A stretch of DNA of 64,000 nt from Alphaproteobacteria bacterium (GTDB lineage Bacteria; Pseudomonadota; Alphaproteobacteria; RF32; CAG-239): positions 124,001 through 188,000 of the forward strand of contig SUUZ01000002.1 of the NCBI GenBank assembly GCA_015062235.1. Direction: 5' to 3'. The stretch's first letter is position 1, and the number at the start of each line of letters is the position of its first letter. The notes beneath the pieces were generated by a model. It made no database searches and was not told where the DNA came from. It was given only the letters and a program-made list of their open reading frames with translations. Of this stretch, positions 3,743 to 46,695 are shown piece by piece. The position numbers were made by a program, and so were the translations under genes.

Positions 3743-3773
3743 GCATTTAAACCACCGTTTAAATGCTATATTT
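3743..3773. repeat. Inverted repeat, gene-distal copy, locus 1 (core of a 38-bp palindrome 3736..3773)
   Basis: GCATTTAAACCACCGTTTAAATGCTATATTT; perfect reverse complement of 3889..3919; the full palindrome AAATATAGCATTTAAAC-CACC-GTTTAAATGCTATATTT has 17-bp perfect arms. Confidence 0.95.
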
Positions 3774-3888
3774 ATTTTAATTATACATCAAAAAAAGTAA
3801 AAAAGCAATTAATTATATTTTATGACATATTTTCAATATGTTAGCTCGTTTTTCTATCTTTCTTTTTTCATCTTAAAAATCGTTTCAC
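3774..3888 (-). promoter_or_regulatory. 115-bp segment between the inverted repeats; candidate invertible promoter, locus 1
   Basis: Minus-strand -35 TTGCTT (3803..3808), 17-bp spacer, -10 TATAAT (3780..3785), directed away from the 3965 ORF; same length and promoter as 21513..21627. Confidence 0.7.
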
Positions 3889-3919
3889 AAATATAGCATT
3901 TAAACGGTGGTTTAAATGC
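3889..3919. repeat. Inverted repeat, gene-proximal copy, locus 1
   Basis: AAATATAGCATTTAAACGGTGGTTTAAATGC, exact reverse complement of 3743..3773. Confidence 0.95.
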
Positions 3920-3964: not shown

Positions 3965-4813
3965 ATGAAAAAATATTTACTTTTATGTTCAGCTTTAGTT
4001 GTGGCTTCATCAGCTTATGCTTTGGATTGTGCAACACCGCCAACTTGTGAAGACCTTGGTTTTACAATGAGTGCAGATGAATGTGCTGGAAAATTTACTC
4101 TTAAATGCCCTTTTGATAATACTAACGTTTTTTGTGGTATGAATATCAATGATGGTACAGCTTGCCAAAGCAAAATTGGTGATATGACTGTGATTACCTC
4201 CTCAAGTACGCTACTAGGTTCGGGTACAGATTATCTTTATCCTGAAAATTGCATGTCGTGTGGAACAAATGGTATTACTTTAGGGGCTAATTCAACATTA
4301 AACTCTTATTGTGCATTCTCAGAGTGTTATTGTACTGATAAGCCTGGCTATTGTCAGGCCACTATTACATTAGCCGATGGTTCTGCTGTTAAGGGAATAG
4401 AATTACAGAGTGTACTAACCCTTAATATTAATGGTGCCACTACTCTTTATAATACAGATTTTGATGTTGAGCTAGCTGTTTTAAATACAGGAGCTAGCGG
4501 CAAAAATATAGCTATACAGTCAAAATCCACTGGTACTATCTCAACATTACGTGCTGCATATTCTGGTTCACCTACCTATAATATCGTGTTAAGTTCAGGA
4601 AGTTATCTTACCATAACAAATCTTGGGGTACATCCTTCTTTTAATCCTTTAACAACGACGGGTGTTGCAACTGTAAATGTTATAATGAACTCAAACACTA
4701 AATTTACTTATAAAGGAACAACTTATACCAAAGGACTTAGCGTAGGCAACACCGCCCTCACCTGCACGATTATTGCTTCTGTCAATGGCTTACAACTTGG
4801 TGTATGTAAATAG
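3965..4813 (+). CDS. Secreted protein with N-terminal Cys-rich domain and a Ser/Thr/Asn-rich C-terminal region; paralogue of 20894..21436
   Basis: Signal peptide MKKYLLLCSALVVASSAYA; motif LDCATPPTCEDLGFTMSADECAGKFTLKCPFDNTNVFCG shared with the second locus; SD aaggagaaa. Confidence 0.85.
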   Translation: MKKYLLLCSALVVASSAYALDCATPPTCEDLGFTMSADECAGKFTLKCPFDNTNVFCGMNINDGTACQSKIGDMTVITSSSTLLGSGTDYLYPENCMSCGTNGITLGANSTLNSYCAFSECYCTDKPGYCQATITLADGSAVKGIELQSVLTLNINGATTLYNTDFDVELAVLNTGASGKNIAIQSKSTGTISTLRAAYSGSPTYNIVLSSGSYLTITNLGVHPSFNPLTTTGVATVNVIMNSNTKFTYKGTTYTKGLSVGNTALTCTIIASVNGLQLGVCK

Positions 4814-20893: not shown

Positions 20894-21436
20894 CTATAAA
20901 TTACACCTCATACAAGTTTCACTAGAAGTACAACATGTTTGGCATGATTTACCACCTTTAGAAGTGAATCCATTTGATTTACTTCCATATGCACAAGCAC
21001 AAGCCTCTGTTGACCCTGGCAAATAGCCTATAGAGCAAGAATCTTTAGCACATTTTTTGTATGTAGAACTATGATAGCATGTCTCGCTAGCATAATACCC
21101 CATTACACAGTAAGTCGCAGTATATCCATCGACAGCGCATTTTTCTTGAGCGGTCATTTCTGTACATTTCAATTTTGTTGGATCGTCAGGACACTCTTCG
21201 CTGTGATAATAAGTTCCACAACTAGTCTGAGTATATCCCAAAGCAGCACAATCTGATCCTCCGCAGAATACAACTGTTTCATCGAAAGGACATTTTAGTG
21301 TGAATTTTCCAGCACAATCGCTAGCACTTTGAGTATAACCTAGATCGTCACAAGTAGGCGGTGTTGAACAATCTAATGCAGCATAAGCAGGTAAAGCTAC
21401 CGCCATTGCTAAAGATAAAAGTAAATATTTTTTCAT
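20894..21436 (-). CDS. Secreted Cys-rich protein; paralogue of 3965..4813
   Basis: MKKYLLLSLAMAVALPAYAALDCSTPPTCDDLGYTQSASDCAGKFTLKCPFDETVVFCGG then many Cys; start MKKYLL preferred over MIMKKYLL. Confidence 0.85.
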   Translation of the reverse strand: MKKYLLLSLAMAVALPAYAALDCSTPPTCDDLGYTQSASDCAGKFTLKCPFDETVVFCGGSDCAALGYTQTSCGTYYHSEECPDDPTKLKCTEMTAQEKCAVDGYTATYCVMGYYASETCYHSSTYKKCAKDSCSIGYLPGSTEACACAYGSKSNGFTSKGGKSCQTCCTSSETCMRCNL

Positions 21437-21481
21437 AATCATTCTCCTTTTTTCAAATTACCCCTAAATTATCCGAATCGT

Positions 21482-21512
21482 GCATTTAAACCACCGTTTA
21501 AATGCTATATTT
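21482..21512. repeat. Inverted repeat, gene-proximal copy, locus 2
   Basis: GCATTTAAACCACCGTTTAAATGCTATATTT, identical to locus 1 3743..3773. Confidence 0.95.
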
Positions 21513-21627
21513 GTGAAGCGATTTCTGGATTAGAAAAATAAGGAAATGTAAAACGACTAACATATTGAAAATATGTTATAAAATATAATTAATTGCTTTT
21601 TTACCTTTTTTGATGTATAATCAAAAT
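21513..21627 (+). promoter_or_regulatory. 115-bp segment between the inverted repeats; candidate invertible promoter, locus 2
   Basis: Plus-strand -35 TTGCTT (21593..21598), 17-bp spacer, -10 TATAAT (21616..21621), directed away from the Cys-rich gene; homologous to the reverse complement of 3774..3888. Confidence 0.7.
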
Positions 21628-21658
21628 AAATATAGTGTTTAAACGGTGGTTTAAATGC
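21628..21658. repeat. Inverted repeat, gene-distal copy, locus 2
   Basis: AAATATAGTGTTTAAACGGTGGTTTAAATGC, 29/31 match to the reverse complement of 21482..21512. Confidence 0.95.
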
Positions 21659-21854
21659 TATATTTTCGTCTTGTAACACTTTGATTTTACGTAAATATGG
21701 TTGTAAAGTAAGGAAGATCGCTGACCTCGCTCACTAATGTTCGCTCAGGGCATGACGTTATTAGGGTATTCGTTTCACTCGCTTAAGAGCATGATATTAA
21801 TGGGGATCTAGTTTAGAGTATGATAATATTTTTCTTACTACTCTTAAAAACTTG

Positions 21855-21903
21855 TTGATTTTTATCTAATTTGCGTTATACATACATACCGAATGTATGT
21901 ATA
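21855..21903 (+). promoter_or_regulatory. Promoter and operator of the TetR/RND operon
   Basis: TTGATT-16-TATACA overlapping the perfect palindrome TATACATACAT-ACCGA-ATGTATGTATA (21877..21903), strongly resembling the known E. coli AcrR operator. Confidence 0.8.
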
Positions 21904-21925
21904 ATAGGGATAGGTAATAAATATA

Positions 21926-22543
21926 ATGGCTAGAAGAACTAAAGAAGATGCCGAACAAACTCGTCTTGCTATTCTCGAGTCGGCATTAAAGACTTTTTAT
22001 GAAAAAGGTTTTTCACGCACTACATTTGATGAAATTGCTAAACGTATCAATCTAACTAAAGGTGCTGTTTATTGGCATTTTCGCAACAAGGCTGATATTA
22101 TTGCAGCCTTAATCTCTCAAAAAATGGCTGAACAAGAAAAATATTATCCTTCATCAACACCAAATGATCTTGTTTCTTTGCGTGAGGCAATCAAAAATCG
22201 TGCTTTAAATATTGAAAAAGACGAAGAATTTCGCCGTTTTCTCTTCTTTATGAATTATCGTATGGAATGGTCTGAAGCTGTTTTAGATAATGTTTGGCCT
22301 CAAATAGCCAGTATAATTGAACTATCAGACCAAAAATTATACAATTGCTTGTTACATATCAAAGATAATGGTTGTATCAAACCTGAAACTGATATAAAAA
22401 GCCTACAAGAAATATTGCTTTGTTTGTGGAAAGGATGTTTAAACCATTATATTATTAATCGAAACAGACAAATAAACTTTACACAAACAATTATGAATGG
22501 ATTTGATGCCATAATGGCAGGTATAAAAATGGAGAAAAACTAA
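21926..22543 (+). CDS. TetR-family (AcrR-like) repressor
   Basis: RLAILESALKTFYEKGFSRTTFDEIAKRINLTKGAVYWHFRNKADI helix-turn-helix. Confidence 0.93.
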   Translation: MARRTKEDAEQTRLAILESALKTFYEKGFSRTTFDEIAKRINLTKGAVYWHFRNKADIIAALISQKMAEQEKYYPSSTPNDLVSLREAIKNRALNIEKDEEFRRFLFFMNYRMEWSEAVLDNVWPQIASIIELSDQKLYNCLLHIKDNGCIKPETDIKSLQEILLCLWKGCLNHYIINRNRQINFTQTIMNGFDAIMAGIKMEKN

Positions 22544-39537: not shown

Positions 39538-42500
39538 TTATTGTAGTTGACAACTTACTGTTTCACCACTAAAGCTACAAACATATTTACTTCCTTTTAG
39601 ATATCCTCCACTTCCCGTTACACTGTTTGGAGGAAATGTATTAGCTATATGACCAAATCTGTCCATACAAATGGTATGAGAACATTGTGAATAACCGGTA
39701 TAACCTTGGTATAAATTACACTTGTCTAAAGTCCCATCACTTTGTCCTTGATAACCACCAGATGTCCTACATTTGCACTTTGACCAATCATATTTATAGG
39801 TGTTTTTGCCACGTTGGCGACAAGATGAACCTGTTGTATCAATACTATTTCCACAACTTTTAGAACTTCCACCTATCCACCAAGGCCCTGAAGAATTATT
39901 AATCCAACCAAAATTGAAACATAATGGCGCCTCTAAAGTTACACCATAAGCAAGGCTGTTTTGTAGTTGAGAAATCTGCTCTCTCTCTGTACAAGCTACA
40001 TCTCTATTGAAATTGGAAGCACAGTCACAGCCACTATAGATTGTTACATCATCAAGCCAAGATCCTGCTAGAACATGACTATCGCCAGATACTTCATATT
40101 GATTACTTAAAGAGGTACATTCTTCTTCAGTAAACCATTCAGACCCTGAGCTAGCAACCTCATCAACAATACATTTGTAATAAGCTTTTCTGTCTGATGC
40201 TACATAAATATGGGCATTATTAGTATGACCGCATAAACTTTTTATCTTATTCTTTATTGGTGTATCATTACGAGCCTTACTTAAGAAATCGTTATTATCA
40301 GTATAGGTTGTGTCAGACAACTTATTATAACCTTCTAATATATCATTACATAAATTATAGTTAGGATAATCTGTTTCTGTTCCGTTACTACTTTTTTCTC
40401 GACACATTGTAGGAGAAGAAAGAGCATAATTTGAATTACCTAAACCACAATATGCATCTATATCTGCTGAAGTTAAATCGCCATCTGACATTGCAGTCTT
40501 AAGAGCTGCACCTTTAGGATTGTTGAGATAGCTTTTATCAAATAGTGTAGAACTACAAACACATCTTTCATACGTTAGGGTGGAGCCATCACCTTTATCG
40601 CAATATTCTACCCCTGTTTGATCATATCCGTCATCAGCACTACATTCCAAACTATAACTGTTCTCACATGAACAAGCTTCATACGAATATGTATCTTTAG
40701 AATTGCCTGTACTATCAACAACTTTATTTACACATATATCATCTGGATTTAAGGCTCCTTTAACACCTTGATTTAGTCCATATGGTGTACAAGATTTACT
40801 ATATATAGTCTTATCACAAATACATTGGTTATATAGACCATCGCAGGCAATTAGTGATGATTGATCATATCCTATATCATCGCATGACTGATTGTATTCG
40901 GTTTTGCAGCGACATTGTCCATAATAAGTTCCAGCTGGCTTAGTTACAGTCGAACTGTTACCTTCTTCATCATAAGTTGTTGTAGAAACTGTTCCTCGAA
41001 CACTACATGTTCCTGATTGTAAATCAACAACCTTACCTTCTGATGATTTGCAATCATCTGCCATTACCGTATATTTATTATTACAATCACATCCTTTATA
41101 AAATTTGGTACCATTGATAAGACAATAATCTTCGTTATATCCTGCAGGAACTACTTCTCCATTAGCTGAATTGCCGCAAGTGTAAGCATATTCTTCTTTA
41201 CATTCGCAAGATGAATAGTATTTGACCTTTTTAGTTTGGGTTTCTTTTTTAGTTGTTGTACTTGTTGTTCCGTCTTCATTTTCAATAATCTCATTCACAT
41301 CTACTTCAACTTCTTCCTCAATTTCACAATAGTTAGATGATTTGGGTGCTACGATACCTTTGTTATTATCTTCGGCCTCACAAGTATATTTATATTTTGA
41401 ACGGTCGCATTCGCAAGATGAATAAACCGTTGGGCCATACGAACCAGATTGAAGTAATGGAACACATTTTTTACCCTTGGTTGCATTACCATTTGAACAT
41501 TCAACATAGCTTTTTGGACACGGACATTCTTTATAAAGCTTGTTACCTTGATCATCAACACAAGATTCTCCAAGAGCTGATTGGTCATAGCCTGTACAAG
41601 AGAACCTAAAACCATTGGTTAAACAGTTGCCCGAATCTTTACAAACAGCATATTTAATGACATCAACTGTTATCTCTGTACCTGTCGCATCTGTTGAGCT
41701 TGTACTAGATGTACAGCTTCCACCATCTCCTGTTTGGGCGGGAGTACAAACTTTATAAGTTAGCTCTTGATATGGCGAACAAGTTGGCGCGCCAGAATTG
41801 CATTCTTCGTAATAAATAGTTTCTTTGCCACTAGCATCTTTTGAGGTACATTGCTCGCCACTACCGCTACCACAAGCTTTCCAGTTGGTTGGACAACGAC
41901 ACATATATTTAACAACTTCTTTGCCTGTCAATTCATCTTTAGCTGTACAAGGAGAATAGCTTTCTTGATTGGTATCGCAAGCAGTTACGTGACCATCGGT
42001 ACATTCATTATCTTTAGGATTTACGCAATCTTTATAGTATTTAACCCCGTCTAACTCGCAATAGTTGCCAACACCTACTTCGCCCTCGCCACAAACTTTG
42101 TCATAACCATTAGCACAGACACAGCTTTCAAAATAAGTTATATCATCTCTGGTACAAGGATTAACGCCAATTTGCAATGGACCTGTACAAGTTTCACTAG
42201 CTAGTGAAGTACAACCGTCTTGAGAAGTACAACTCTTATAATAAGAAACACCTTTTAGATTACAAGGTTCGCCCTCGCCGACTTGTCCAGCTGCGCAAAC
42301 TTTATAATCACTTGGACAGGTACAAGCCTTGTATCCTCCGATATTACCTTCGTTATCTTGGCAACTTTGACCAACAGGAATCAATGGTGCTTCGCACATT
42401 TCGGTATATTCCCAAGTGCATTCAACAACCTCGCATTGATAATATTTTTGACCACAGCCATTGTCTTTCCAAACTCCTGTTGGTTTTTTGCCCCCTGGAC

Positions 42501-45500
42501 AACCGTAATAGTTGTCTGTCCAGTTGTCAGGCAATTTGTCTGGAACACATTCGCAAGCTGTATATTTGCCATTGCAGGCTGTGCCAACACCTTTGTAGCG
42601 ACCACTACCGTCTTCATCACAAATTTCGGTATAGTCGGCCGAACATTCGCAATATGGATAGAATGGTATTTGTTCGCCAACACTATAACCTTCCCCACTT
42701 AGATCAAACTCATTGATAAAATCTTGAGTAATATATTGCTGGCAAGGATTGCCCGAAAGCATACCACCGCAATTAAACTTGTGGTGTTGATAGGCACTAG
42801 TACAATTACATTCACTCCAATATTTTTTACCATTTAGGATAATGTAGTTACCAGTTAAATCATGACGTACACCGCAATTGGCTGTGGTATAGATAAATTC
42901 TTTGGGGTTATAATAGCAGTTATAAGCACGTTTATAGCCCTGTTCTTTACCATATTCACAAAGCTGAGATTTTGCTCCAGGACCAAATTTAGAAGTACAT
43001 TCGCTTTCGGTTTGGGTAACTGCAGCTATAGTATAGTCGCCATCTGCACTACCAACAATTTCTTCGCCACAAACGCCAAAGTTCTTCTGAACCTTACATT
43101 GACCTGATTTATAATGTGGACGGCTTGAGGCATTAAGGTTTGCACCATTTTCACCGACCAAACAATAATCACCATTGCTTGGGTCTGGCTCATAAGGATA
43201 GTCGCAAGGGTCGGTATAAACTTTTGAATCACATTTTACTTCCCAAGCGGGCTGACCTGCGTCATTGGTACATTTTTTGATTGTTACTTTAGGACCAAAA
43301 ATAGCAGATATACTGCCTGTATCAGGAAATGTATTGGGGTCTAAAATAACTGTATCGCTACTTGGTAGGGCACAAGCAGCTTCGGTACACCCACTATAAT
43401 AGGTTTTGCCATTTACTTTGCAAACTAAAGCGTTTGGAACAGGCATTAAATTTTCAGAAGCAGGACATTCTTCAAAATTATCTGGACAATAACAAGGATA
43501 CATTAATGTATTATTTAATGAACAATACGCTTGATTAGCTAAGCCTAAAACAGCACCATTACCCAGAGTATTAGAACACATTATTTGGGTTGGAGTTTGG
43601 TTGTCGGCTGAAAGATAGGTATAAGCACCTGAAATAGCAACTTCATCAAGTATAGATGTACATTTAGCAATGCATTGAGCATATTTTATATCACTAGCAC
43701 CGTCAAGATCACATGCTGTACCACTAGGTTCGGCCAAAAATGTATATGATGAAATATCTTGTGTATTACAACTATTATTAGTGTCATATTGAGCGTAATA
43801 GCTTATAGGACAACGACAAGTAACTCTTTCTGTACCTTTGCTGTCTTTACAACTATAGTCATATTCACCACCGACATAACTGCAATCGCTTTCAGAATAA
43901 TATAATGGTCTGTCAGCTGGACAAAAACGAACATAAGAAGCATATTTAGTCAAATTTTTTATTGGAGCTCCAGTTGTTTCATTAACAACTATATCCCATG
44001 TACAAGATGTACCCTGTCCAGTGTAATTTACTTTGCAATCATTTTCGGATATACCTTCGTCTTCATAATGAAGAGCACACCAATCTTCTATCGTAACAAA
44101 GTTTTTAGGGCATGAACAAATAAATTGTTCTTTGCGTTCATACATTTCAGTACACATTTGTGGTTCGTCCATTCCTCCTCGTACCGATGTAGCATAGCCA
44201 TCAATATAGTCACAACCATTAATAGTTGATGCAGAATTTATAGCAAAATCCGTACCGCAAGTAATGTTGCAATTTGCATATTTTGTAATGGTAGTACCTG
44301 AGTTATTACGATCATATTCACATTTTGGACCACCTGGAGTTTGATATGTTTCAGCACATTCGTTTGTGTAGCTATCTGGACAACGACAAACATGTTTGAA
44401 TTTGCTAAAATTATATATTAAATCGCCTGTTTCTTTATAATAACACAGATTAGCAACAGGTAAAGAATTACTATCACCTTCTATTTGGCAACCTTCAACA
44501 TATTCTTTAACATTCATTGCTGGAGCAGCATCACAATTTAGACCATAGTCGACATATTTGCTTTCTTCTCCAACGATACAAGGATTTCCTAAACCAACAA
44601 AATGTTGATTGCAATTATATCCACTTATTAATTTGGATTCATTATTTGGATCACTACACCACTCTTCTTTAGTCTTATATTCTGGGGAGCAAGTGAGACC
44701 AGATCCTAGAACTTTGCCTTGTGAGTACTGAACAGGATTATCTGCAGTGGCTTCTGGCGTTGGATGAGTATAGCAAAGTGTTCCTGATAAAGTAGTATTA
44801 TCAATACATTCTTGATATTCAGGAGTACCTTCACTATAAGATTCTTTGCACCAATCTTCTTTGGTTTTATAATCATCTGGACAATCACAATAATAGTAAT
44901 CTACCTTTGGTTCTCCACCTCCATAGTATGGTGTATTGGCAGAATCTCCATAATAGTGGCAAGATCCTAATTCAATGTCATCATTTCCGTTAACTTGAGT
45001 GCATATAGCGGCTTGGCGTGTTTGATGATCTTCAAAACCTGCGCAATATAGAGTAACTGAAACTTTATTAGCTAATTCATGTTCGTTCTTATAACAGTCC
45101 GCTGTACTGATAGGATATTCAGAACTTGAACTTACATAAGAATAAATATAAGAAACTCCGTCAATATAGTGAACACCTCGTGTGTCGCCATTTGAACACA
45201 TTTCTGACTTAAGACGACAATATTGATATTCTGTTGGTGCTTGTTGAACTTGAGGTTCTTCAGGATCGTCTGCTGCTCTAGTTGGACTAGCTGTTAGAGG
45301 TAATCTACATTCTAAACCGCCTGCAACTATTTTTGCTGTATCTCCATTAGCAAGTTCTGCGGCACACTCGGCTTCGGTTTTATAACTATCAGGACACTTA
45401 CATTGATATTGTGTTGTTGTGGTGTCAGAGGTAAGCTCTTCGTAATAAGTACAACTACTGGCGTTTTCGGCTCCCAAAGTTGCACATGTTTCCCCTTCGG

Positions 45501-46695
45501 AAAGATTTGTCGCAACAAAATCTTTACAACCAAACTTGAGATATTTTAATGTACCACCGTTATCACAAGCTGTATAATCATCTAATGAACTGTCAGAAAT
45601 ATCTGTAAGTTTATAGCCTTCAGCAACTTTTTCATTAAACAAATCTTGGCAAGCTTGGTAAGCTTCTGTACAAGCATAGCCCAAACAATAAACCTCCCCA
45701 CAATCAACATAACAAGCTGTTCTTGGCTGGTCACCACCAGCTCCACAATCTGACTGACTAGTTACTGTATATTCGTCAGGACACTGTGTAAATGAGCTTT
45801 CTGACACTACTTTGCAATAAGTTAGACTTACATCATCATTGTTTGTACATGTTTGTTGTGAAGTTACTGTTGGTATACAAGCAACTTCGTCATTTGTTAT
45901 TTTTGCAATATAATCTGTATTGGTAACACCCTTATAAGTACACCAATCTGGACTATTTGGAATATAGTATCTTCTTGTACTATCCCCGTCTCTATATCCT
46001 TCACAATACGAATTAGAAGTTAGATTATACATACCATCAAAACTATCTGTCGTATATGGCAATATATCTTCACTAGCACATTCAACGAAAAGTGTTTGCT
46101 CGTTATTATAACAATATGTTTTTGTTACACTGTATCTACTGTTTTGAGCAACACTATTACCTAATTCTGTAGGTGATGATGAATATGGCCAATCGTTTGT
46201 TTCGCAGTAAAGAGGTACGTTTTCTGGATCACTTGCTAGATAACAATATGCTGTTGGAGTGCCTCTTTCTGGGGTATTATCACCACCCTCAGCGACTATA
46301 CTATGATCATGTCTATAACCACAACACCAACCGATATTATTGTTGTCCCAATCGCTTCTATCGTCTGTATATGCTGTAGTATAAGGTAAAACTGAATTAC
46401 CTGCACAAGCTGAAAATTGAAATTCGTACTCACCATTACAATATGTTTCTTGCGTCAGATAACTGGTGTCACTTGCTGTACTTTCTAAAGAAGTAGCATC
46501 TACACTATGTGGCCAGTCATCTGTAGAACATGGAGTTTGTTCAGCTCTTGTTCCGCCATCTGCAGCAGCTGAACGGGTAGACATCAATGATACACCACTA
46601 TATTCATTAAGTGGTGTAACCGCAGCAAAAGCACTTGAAAAGTCAAGCCCTAAAGCAATTAAGACGACAACAAAAACCTTGAGTAGACGCAACAT
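39538..46695 (-). CDS. Giant (2385 aa) secreted Cys-repeat protein
   Basis: Signal peptide MLRLLKVFVVVLIALGLDFSSAFA; dozens of degenerate units of the type C.CP..Y..C......G..C...G..YY..C; duplicated N-terminal block beginning C.T.DWP. Confidence 0.85.
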   Translation of the reverse strand: MLRLLKVFVVVLIALGLDFSSAFAAVTPLNEYSGVSLMSTRSAAADGGTRAEQTPCSTDDWPHSVDATSLESTASDTSYLTQETYCNGEYEFQFSACAGNSVLPYTTAYTDDRSDWDNNNIGWCCGYRHDHSIVAEGGDNTPERGTPTAYCYLASDPENVPLYCETNDWPYSSSPTELGNSVAQNSRYSVTKTYCYNNEQTLFVECASEDILPYTTDSFDGMYNLTSNSYCEGYRDGDSTRRYYIPNSPDWCTYKGVTNTDYIAKITNDEVACIPTVTSQQTCTNNDDVSLTYCKVVSESSFTQCPDEYTVTSQSDCGAGGDQPRTACYVDCGEVYCLGYACTEAYQACQDLFNEKVAEGYKLTDISDSSLDDYTACDNGGTLKYLKFGCKDFVATNLSEGETCATLGAENASSCTYYEELTSDTTTTQYQCKCPDSYKTEAECAAELANGDTAKIVAGGLECRLPLTASPTRAADDPEEPQVQQAPTEYQYCRLKSEMCSNGDTRGVHYIDGVSYIYSYVSSSSEYPISTADCYKNEHELANKVSVTLYCAGFEDHQTRQAAICTQVNGNDDIELGSCHYYGDSANTPYYGGGEPKVDYYYCDCPDDYKTKEDWCKESYSEGTPEYQECIDNTTLSGTLCYTHPTPEATADNPVQYSQGKVLGSGLTCSPEYKTKEEWCSDPNNESKLISGYNCNQHFVGLGNPCIVGEESKYVDYGLNCDAAPAMNVKEYVEGCQIEGDSNSLPVANLCYYKETGDLIYNFSKFKHVCRCPDSYTNECAETYQTPGGPKCEYDRNNSGTTITKYANCNITCGTDFAINSASTINGCDYIDGYATSVRGGMDEPQMCTEMYERKEQFICSCPKNFVTIEDWCALHYEDEGISENDCKVNYTGQGTSCTWDIVVNETTGAPIKNLTKYASYVRFCPADRPLYYSESDCSYVGGEYDYSCKDSKGTERVTCRCPISYYAQYDTNNSCNTQDISSYTFLAEPSGTACDLDGASDIKYAQCIAKCTSILDEVAISGAYTYLSADNQTPTQIMCSNTLGNGAVLGLANQAYCSLNNTLMYPCYCPDNFEECPASENLMPVPNALVCKVNGKTYYSGCTEAACALPSSDTVILDPNTFPDTGSISAIFGPKVTIKKCTNDAGQPAWEVKCDSKVYTDPCDYPYEPDPSNGDYCLVGENGANLNASSRPHYKSGQCKVQKNFGVCGEEIVGSADGDYTIAAVTQTESECTSKFGPGAKSQLCEYGKEQGYKRAYNCYYNPKEFIYTTANCGVRHDLTGNYIILNGKKYWSECNCTSAYQHHKFNCGGMLSGNPCQQYITQDFINEFDLSGEGYSVGEQIPFYPYCECSADYTEICDEDGSGRYKGVGTACNGKYTACECVPDKLPDNWTDNYYGCPGGKKPTGVWKDNGCGQKYYQCEVVECTWEYTEMCEAPLIPVGQSCQDNEGNIGGYKACTCPSDYKVCAAGQVGEGEPCNLKGVSYYKSCTSQDGCTSLASETCTGPLQIGVNPCTRDDITYFESCVCANGYDKVCGEGEVGVGNYCELDGVKYYKDCVNPKDNECTDGHVTACDTNQESYSPCTAKDELTGKEVVKYMCRCPTNWKACGSGSGEQCTSKDASGKETIYYEECNSGAPTCSPYQELTYKVCTPAQTGDGGSCTSSTSSTDATGTEITVDVIKYAVCKDSGNCLTNGFRFSCTGYDQSALGESCVDDQGNKLYKECPCPKSYVECSNGNATKGKKCVPLLQSGSYGPTVYSSCECDRSKYKYTCEAEDNNKGIVAPKSSNYCEIEEEVEVDVNEIIENEDGTTSTTTKKETQTKKVKYYSSCECKEEYAYTCGNSANGEVVPAGYNEDYCLINGTKFYKGCDCNNKYTVMADDCKSSEGKVVDLQSGTCSVRGTVSTTTYDEEGNSSTVTKPAGTYYGQCRCKTEYNQSCDDIGYDQSSLIACDGLYNQCICDKTIYSKSCTPYGLNQGVKGALNPDDICVNKVVDSTGNSKDTYSYEACSCENSYSLECSADDGYDQTGVEYCDKGDGSTLTYERCVCSSTLFDKSYLNNPKGAALKTAMSDGDLTSADIDAYCGLGNSNYALSSPTMCREKSSNGTETDYPNYNLCNDILEGYNKLSDTTYTDNNDFLSKARNDTPIKNKIKSLCGHTNNAHIYVASDRKAYYKCIVDEVASSGSEWFTEEECTSLSNQYEVSGDSHVLAGSWLDDVTIYSGCDCASNFNRDVACTEREQISQLQNSLAYGVTLEAPLCFNFGWINNSSGPWWIGGSSKSCGNSIDTTGSSCRQRGKNTYKYDWSKCKCRTSGGYQGQSDGTLDKCNLYQGYTGYSQCSHTICMDRFGHIANTFPPNSVTGSGGYLKGSKYVCSFSGETVSCQLQ

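Follow-up and report, generated by a model that had tools for sequence, protein, structure and literature searches.

Background

Hin and Gin, the small serine invertases, are recombinases of about 200 aa that act on an inverted pair of dyad sites, each with a 2-bp core. Large sets of flip switches are known mainly from Bacteroides and from a mycoplasma, and not from the bacterial group studied here. As described in those parts of PMC4747536 that cite Coyne 2003, the Bacteroides Mpi enzyme is a serine invertase that acts on many dispersed promoters. In Mycoplasma penetrans the mpl (P35) family comprises 38 lipoprotein genes, most of which have their own invertible promoter, according to the passages of PMC2268961 and PMC10502178 that draw on Horino 2003. 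A survey of gut genomes reported far fewer invertible-promoter loci per genome in Proteobacteria than in Bacteroidales (PMC8748976), and our literature search found no paper on promoter inversion in the lineage considered here.

In the present work we analysed a 64,000-nucleotide stretch (the window) from the genome of an uncultured gut alphaproteobacterium, together with the rest of that genome and its relatives. Like the Bacteroides Mpi system as described, the one found there has serine invertases of ~200 aa that belong to the same curated family (NF009949) and a shared inverted site that borders many dispersed promoters; glycan operons are here a second target class. It differs in that the host is an alphaproteobacterium, that the main target is a single paralogous family of Cys-rich exported proteins, and that the genome has five Mpi-type paralogues, with predicted catalysis, and a different site. 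With the mpl family, as far as the cited accounts describe it, it shares one invertible promoter per paralogous exported member and independent ON and OFF states, whereas the proteins are unrelated and not lipoproteins by sequence, the loci are dispersed singly and not gathered in three clusters, and Mpi-type enzymes are available; the system works like the mpl switch, but is not a member of it. Hin and Gin have the dyad sites, 2-bp core, inverted pair and ~200-aa recombinase in common with it, whereas the segment described here is far shorter, has no linked invertase gene and occurs at many loci, with no enhancer identified.

Results

Anatomy of the cassette

The cassette (locus 2) precedes a minus-strand gene for a Cys-rich Sec-signal protein of ~180 aa (20894..21436), whose start codon is most likely at 21436 (MKKYLLL), the mechanically called ORF starting at 21442. 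The leader (21437..21481, minus strand), which includes a GGAGAA ribosome-binding site at 21442-21447, is common to 10 family loci with at most 3 mismatches. As the original prediction held, two inverted arms of 31 nt each (21482-21512 and 21628-21658), complementary at 29 of 31 positions (94%), are separated by 115 nt; this putative invertible spacer (21513..21627) is reversed at three other loci. Repeat and site searches placed a putative gene-proximal recombination site, GCATTTAAACCACCGTTTAAATGC, on the plus strand in the first arm (21482..21505) and a putative distal site, with 2 mismatches, on the minus strand in the second (21635..21658). When up to 3 mismatches were allowed, this 24-bp palindromic sequence matched the window 4 times and had no match in 100 dinucleotide-preserving shuffles.

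The predicted promoter (21593..21621, plus strand) consists of TTGCTT at 21593-21598, a gap of 17 nt and TATAAT at 21616-21621, and it points away from the Cys-rich gene, that is, it is OFF as judged by the orientation table across cassettes. Its -35 element is weak (3/6 against TTGACA), which explains why it is missing from the list produced by a consensus scan. Reading the letters also confirmed a palindrome within the spacer, TAACATATT-GAA-AATATGTTA at 21558-21578, which is mostly kept in other cassettes, and beyond the distal site lies a conserved flank (21659..21700, plus strand) common to most of them.

The second cassette of the window, locus 1 (3743..3919, sites at 3743-3766 and 3896-3919), was delimited by site search, alignment and the orientation table; its promoter points leftward (OFF), and it precedes a plus-strand gene for a Cys-rich secreted protein of 282 aa (3965..4813). 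Alignment of the two loci showed that the promoter half, the sites and the leader are conserved and that the gene-proximal part of the spacer is more divergent, in agreement with the original prediction. The loci had also been called unlinked, which has to be corrected, as they lie on the same contig about 17.7 kb apart.

With regard to the surroundings of locus 2 (21616-22543), the promoter now aims at a tetR-type gene (21926), which is followed by an efflux-type operon. The stretch between the promoter and these genes gave no terminator, and such an arrangement towards a neighbour was not seen at other loci. A common target of the OFF promoters was rejected because the distal neighbours mostly aim towards the cassette. 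A REP-like repeat at 21716-21800, with repeats of the GAGCGAGGT, GTGAGTG and CATGCCCTGAG types, recurs close to many cassettes. The window also holds a minus-strand ORF of 2385 aa at 39538-46695.

Copies in the genome

The 18-bp form of the site, TTTAAACCACCGTTTAAA, occurs in 36 copies (up to 1 mismatch) in the 1.43-Mb genome, and the reversed-pattern control gave 0. Thirty-two of these copies form 16 inverted pairs, all in the order plus then minus and all exactly 153 bp apart, leaving 4 single sites. A promoter lies inside every one of the 16 pairs, so that the repeats and promoter stand beside a gene as in an inverton. Fifteen pairs are located about 49 nt upstream of a member of one Sec-signal, Cys-rich family: 14 precede complete or partial M(K/R)KYLLL...AYA genes that start 49-51 nt past the 18-bp core, and the 15th (C7) is followed by the family leader and first codons and then by a contig end. 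The 16th (C4) precedes an EamA-type transporter gene. Each Cys-rich paralogue is found with its own putative invertible promoter, as in the mpl family, and one site is shared by many dispersed promoters, as in an Mpi-type regulon. The pairs are neither confined to the two places first noticed nor detached from secreted proteins, and the proposal of a promoter-inversion module reused before one class of secreted protein is borne out by these 16 pairs, 15 of them at a single family.

A search of the genome with the Cys-rich family gave 16 matches at about 15 loci; a pair is missing from only one family gene (C11:64), which begins next to a site truncated by a contig end. Searches of Pfam, NCBIfam and PDB with the Cys-rich protein gave no match, and an AlphaFold model of the protein alone had no usable fold (pLDDT 36.6). 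By inspection, its signal-like start finishes with AYA-ALDC and contains no lipobox, so the protein is not classed as a lipoprotein.

Some cassettes have decayed or been rearranged, as the four single sites show. At one of them (L047:2502-2519, C10:91001 of the genome) the leader of a Cys-rich gene is joined straight to the distal flank without a spacer, representing either a deletion form or an assembly path; ordinary inversion would not yield it. Two others (L037:2371 and L039:2087, corresponding to C6:85370 and C6:265586) are lone sites with the conserved distal flank and no partner, which we read as decayed cassettes. The C4 cassette (L036:1206-2310), which is ON before its transporter gene, adjoins a partial copy of a GNAT gene.

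Evidence for inversion

Among the paralogous loci 13 are OFF and three are ON (C4, C9b and C10a); both copies in the window are OFF, in line with what had been predicted for them. The ON spacers match the locus 1 spacer only when reversed (0.83-0.93 versus 0.66-0.71), while the flanks are conserved. In addition, the inner half-site marker TTTAAG, which replaces TTTAAA, is on the gene side at the OFF loci C1a and C8 and on the distal side at the ON locus C10a. The marker switches side together with the spacer, which places the exchange point inside the site, between its inner and outer halves.

Comparisons between loci gave a similar picture. C6b and C13 have 58-nt leaders that are 100% identical and spacers that are 87% identical, whereas C13 and C9f have spacers that are 98% identical and leaders that are 81% identical. 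As read from these alignments, spacers and leaders have different histories, the spacers having been reassorted between loci at the sites. Moreover, of 26 contig ends, 5 coincide exactly with a site core (assembly k = 127, as judged from contig ends overlapping by exactly 127). Coexisting orientations would produce such ends, but repeats could contribute, and we regard them as suggestive only. If joined, the end of C5 and the start of C7 would bring together an Mpi-type gene and a degenerate Mpi-like gene, an arrangement that G017 and G009 have in intact loci.

Candidate invertases and glycan-operon sites

The genome gave matches to 4 tyrosine and 9 serine recombinases. Five of the serine proteins, each of ~200 aa, match NF009949 ('master DNA invertase Mpi family') with 269.5-293.9 bits, and 3 of these exceed the curated cut-off of 272 bits. 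None of the five genes adjoins a site of the type found at the Cys-rich genes, nor was a repeat pair found beside them, except for a half-site at the end of contig C5. Our best guess, an indirect one, for the enzyme acting on this site is the product of C6:57678-58331, for which 37 congeners yielded no full-length relative above 64%; this lack of close relatives fits the restriction of the site to its own species. In the tree it sides, weakly and on a long branch, with an orthologous G012/G002 pair, apart from the clade holding the enzymes beside glycan-type sites.

The core AAACCACCGTTT, of which the genome contains 44 copies (control, 2), is common to the pairs at the Cys-rich genes and to the glycan-type sites. 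Apart from the pairs at the Cys-rich genes, sites with this core lie 132 bp apart at C6:116-259 and C13:29996-30139, both adjoining degenerate Mpi-like genes, and the latter also adjoins a family 2 glycosyltransferase gene. In congeners, pairs with the same core either adjoin Mpi-type genes or separate divergent glycosyltransferase operons. An inverted-repeat pair was present within 500 bp upstream of 20 of the 68 Mpi-type loci with enough upstream DNA, many of which are related and hence not independent, and in 0 control windows of equal size. In G005, an inverted pair with this core (L197:2129-2272, 132 bp apart) separates divergent, near-identical family 2 glycosyltransferase operons and looks like a two-way toggle.

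The degenerate Mpi-like proteins (L079:5391-6143, C13:29390-30143 of the genome; L078:113-870, on C6; L080:50-616, on C7) scored 73-80 bits against the cut-off of 272 (two scored). The Arg motifs usual in serine recombinases are missing from them, GYLDKS standing in place of YxRVS and ANITSIGHK in place of SRLGR. As they adjoin repeats resembling invertible promoters and head glycan operons, they are perhaps regulators and not recombinases.

Sites in related genomes

The relatives in the public record are uncultured gut and rumen Alphaproteobacteria. The site of the present species, of the form TTTAAACC-AC-CGTTTAAA, was absent from 60 relatives (36 congeners), save for two single matches with 1 mismatch. 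The 24-bp site had 0 matches in a genome-contig collection from which the genome itself was excluded, and the cassette as a DNA query gave nothing in the genus beyond weak matches to AT-rich promoters. In viral contigs the 18-mer gave nine matches, all of them single sites.

In two congeners that also have the Cys-rich gene family, a similar promoter is flanked by different palindromic site pairs. In G012 a 28-bp palindrome, TTGCAAAAAAAGG-NN-CCTTTTTTTGCAA, is present 19 times, and among 38 genomes of the genus it was found in this one alone; the copies examined precede Cys-rich genes, some lying between two divergent ones. Neighbouring G012 sites have complementary 2-bp cores (AA with TT, AT with AT) in 8 of 9 cases, a value reached in 0 of 20,000 permutations, which is what a recombinase with a 2-bp overlap would require. 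Similar sites, GCAAAAAAACG-NN-C(C/G)TTTTTTTGC, number 16 in G002, and among them are five pairs spaced 120 bp apart. The present species and G002 have the promoter string TTGCTTTTTTA in common, and G012 has close forms of it. Such repeats were absent from most other sampled congeners that have the Cys-rich family. At L307 and L308 (G012) and at L313 and L314 (G002), two or three palindromic sites lie between divergent Cys-rich genes, and one promoter may here serve either gene.

Discussion

Each cassette is very probably an invertible promoter, and a serine recombinase of the Mpi family, acting in trans, would flip it independently of the other loci. The enzyme would pair the two inverted 24-bp sites and cut at the central dinucleotide (AAACC-AC-CGTTT), after which the segment between the sites would flip. 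In the ON state transcription from the promoter would cross one site and the leader and enter the adjacent gene for a Cys-rich secreted protein, and in the OFF state, the one seen at both loci in the window, the promoter would aim into the neighbouring intergenic region. With the same site present at 16 or more dispersed loci, a single enzyme could act on every promoter and could set each independently, giving cells with different mixtures of proteins. The sequences themselves show how the cassettes are built, how many there are and how their sites pair, that ON and OFF arrangements occur at different loci, that markers have been exchanged and spacers reassorted at the sites, and that Mpi-family invertases are encoded. 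From them we infer that inversion is ongoing, that the promoters are active, that an Mpi-type enzyme acts on them and that the biological role is variation of exported proteins; single cells can probably switch their Cys-rich proteins on and off at random.

It is highly improbable that the cassettes are instead mobile elements, MITE-like or otherwise non-autonomous and bounded by terminal inverted repeats, that landed before these genes and bring no regulatory switching. They do form 177-bp units with inverted ends in many copies, and the four single sites could be remnants, but mobile elements would not readily account for a spacing of 153 bp kept in every pair, for a position at the same distance before one gene family in 15 of 16 cases, or for a promoter in every cassette. 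The flanks are conserved on both sides outside the repeats, unlike those of unrelated insertions, spacers are found both ways round between the same flanks, with half-site markers exchanged, and congeners keep the gene family and a similar promoter with other repeats. The site is also a near-perfect palindrome, and a simple scan rates the gene-proximal copy as terminator-like, which raises the question of whether the sites are operators or RNA hairpins (terminators or attenuators), the reversed spacers being relics of old rearrangements with no present switching. We consider this very improbable, as exchange occurred inside the sites and spacers reassort between loci there, the central CACC gives each site a polarity relative to which every pair is inverted, an Rfam search gave no match, and contigs end exactly at the cores.

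A different question is whether the promoters invert by means of a tyrosine recombinase and not an Mpi-type serine invertase. Four tyrosine recombinases are encoded, and promoters of B. fragilis are flipped by tyrosine enzymes (BF2766/Tsr19; PMC4747536). However, two of the four appear XerC/XerD-like from their length and context, and in several congeners sites with the same core adjoin Mpi-type serine genes. The site variants AAAAACCTAGGTT, AAAAACCTTGGTTT and AAAGGAACCTTT follow an AAACC-NN-GGTTT style, which we take to be that of small serine invertases, and the complementary cores of neighbouring G012 sites (8/9) are as expected of a 2-bp overlap. A tyrosine enzyme is on these grounds unlikely, and a serine invertase of the Mpi family is the reading we prefer.

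Altogether we regard the system as a multi-locus invertible-promoter regulon of the kind represented by Bacteroides Mpi and M. penetrans mpl, in an unexpected lineage and with site sequences that differ between species. More tentatively, and with somewhat less than even confidence, we suggest that within one genus of uncultured gut alphaproteobacteria this gene family, with a similar promoter, has come to be controlled by serine-recombinase site pairs that differ between species, that in G012 the 2-bp core, which varies from locus to locus but agrees within each, serves as an address separating the switches, and that the degenerate Mpi-like proteins heading flip-controlled glycan operons are switching regulators. 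Congeners with different sites at the same gene family represent a natural experiment on the joint change of recombinase and site. The genome appears to contradict the statement on gut Proteobacteria in PMC8748976: an alphaproteobacterium of 1.4 Mb that has 16 or more such promoters at a single exported family, besides those at glycan operons, would clearly be an exception. The system also hints at a role for a family without recognised domains, namely that of variable exported proteins facing hosts, phages or competitors.
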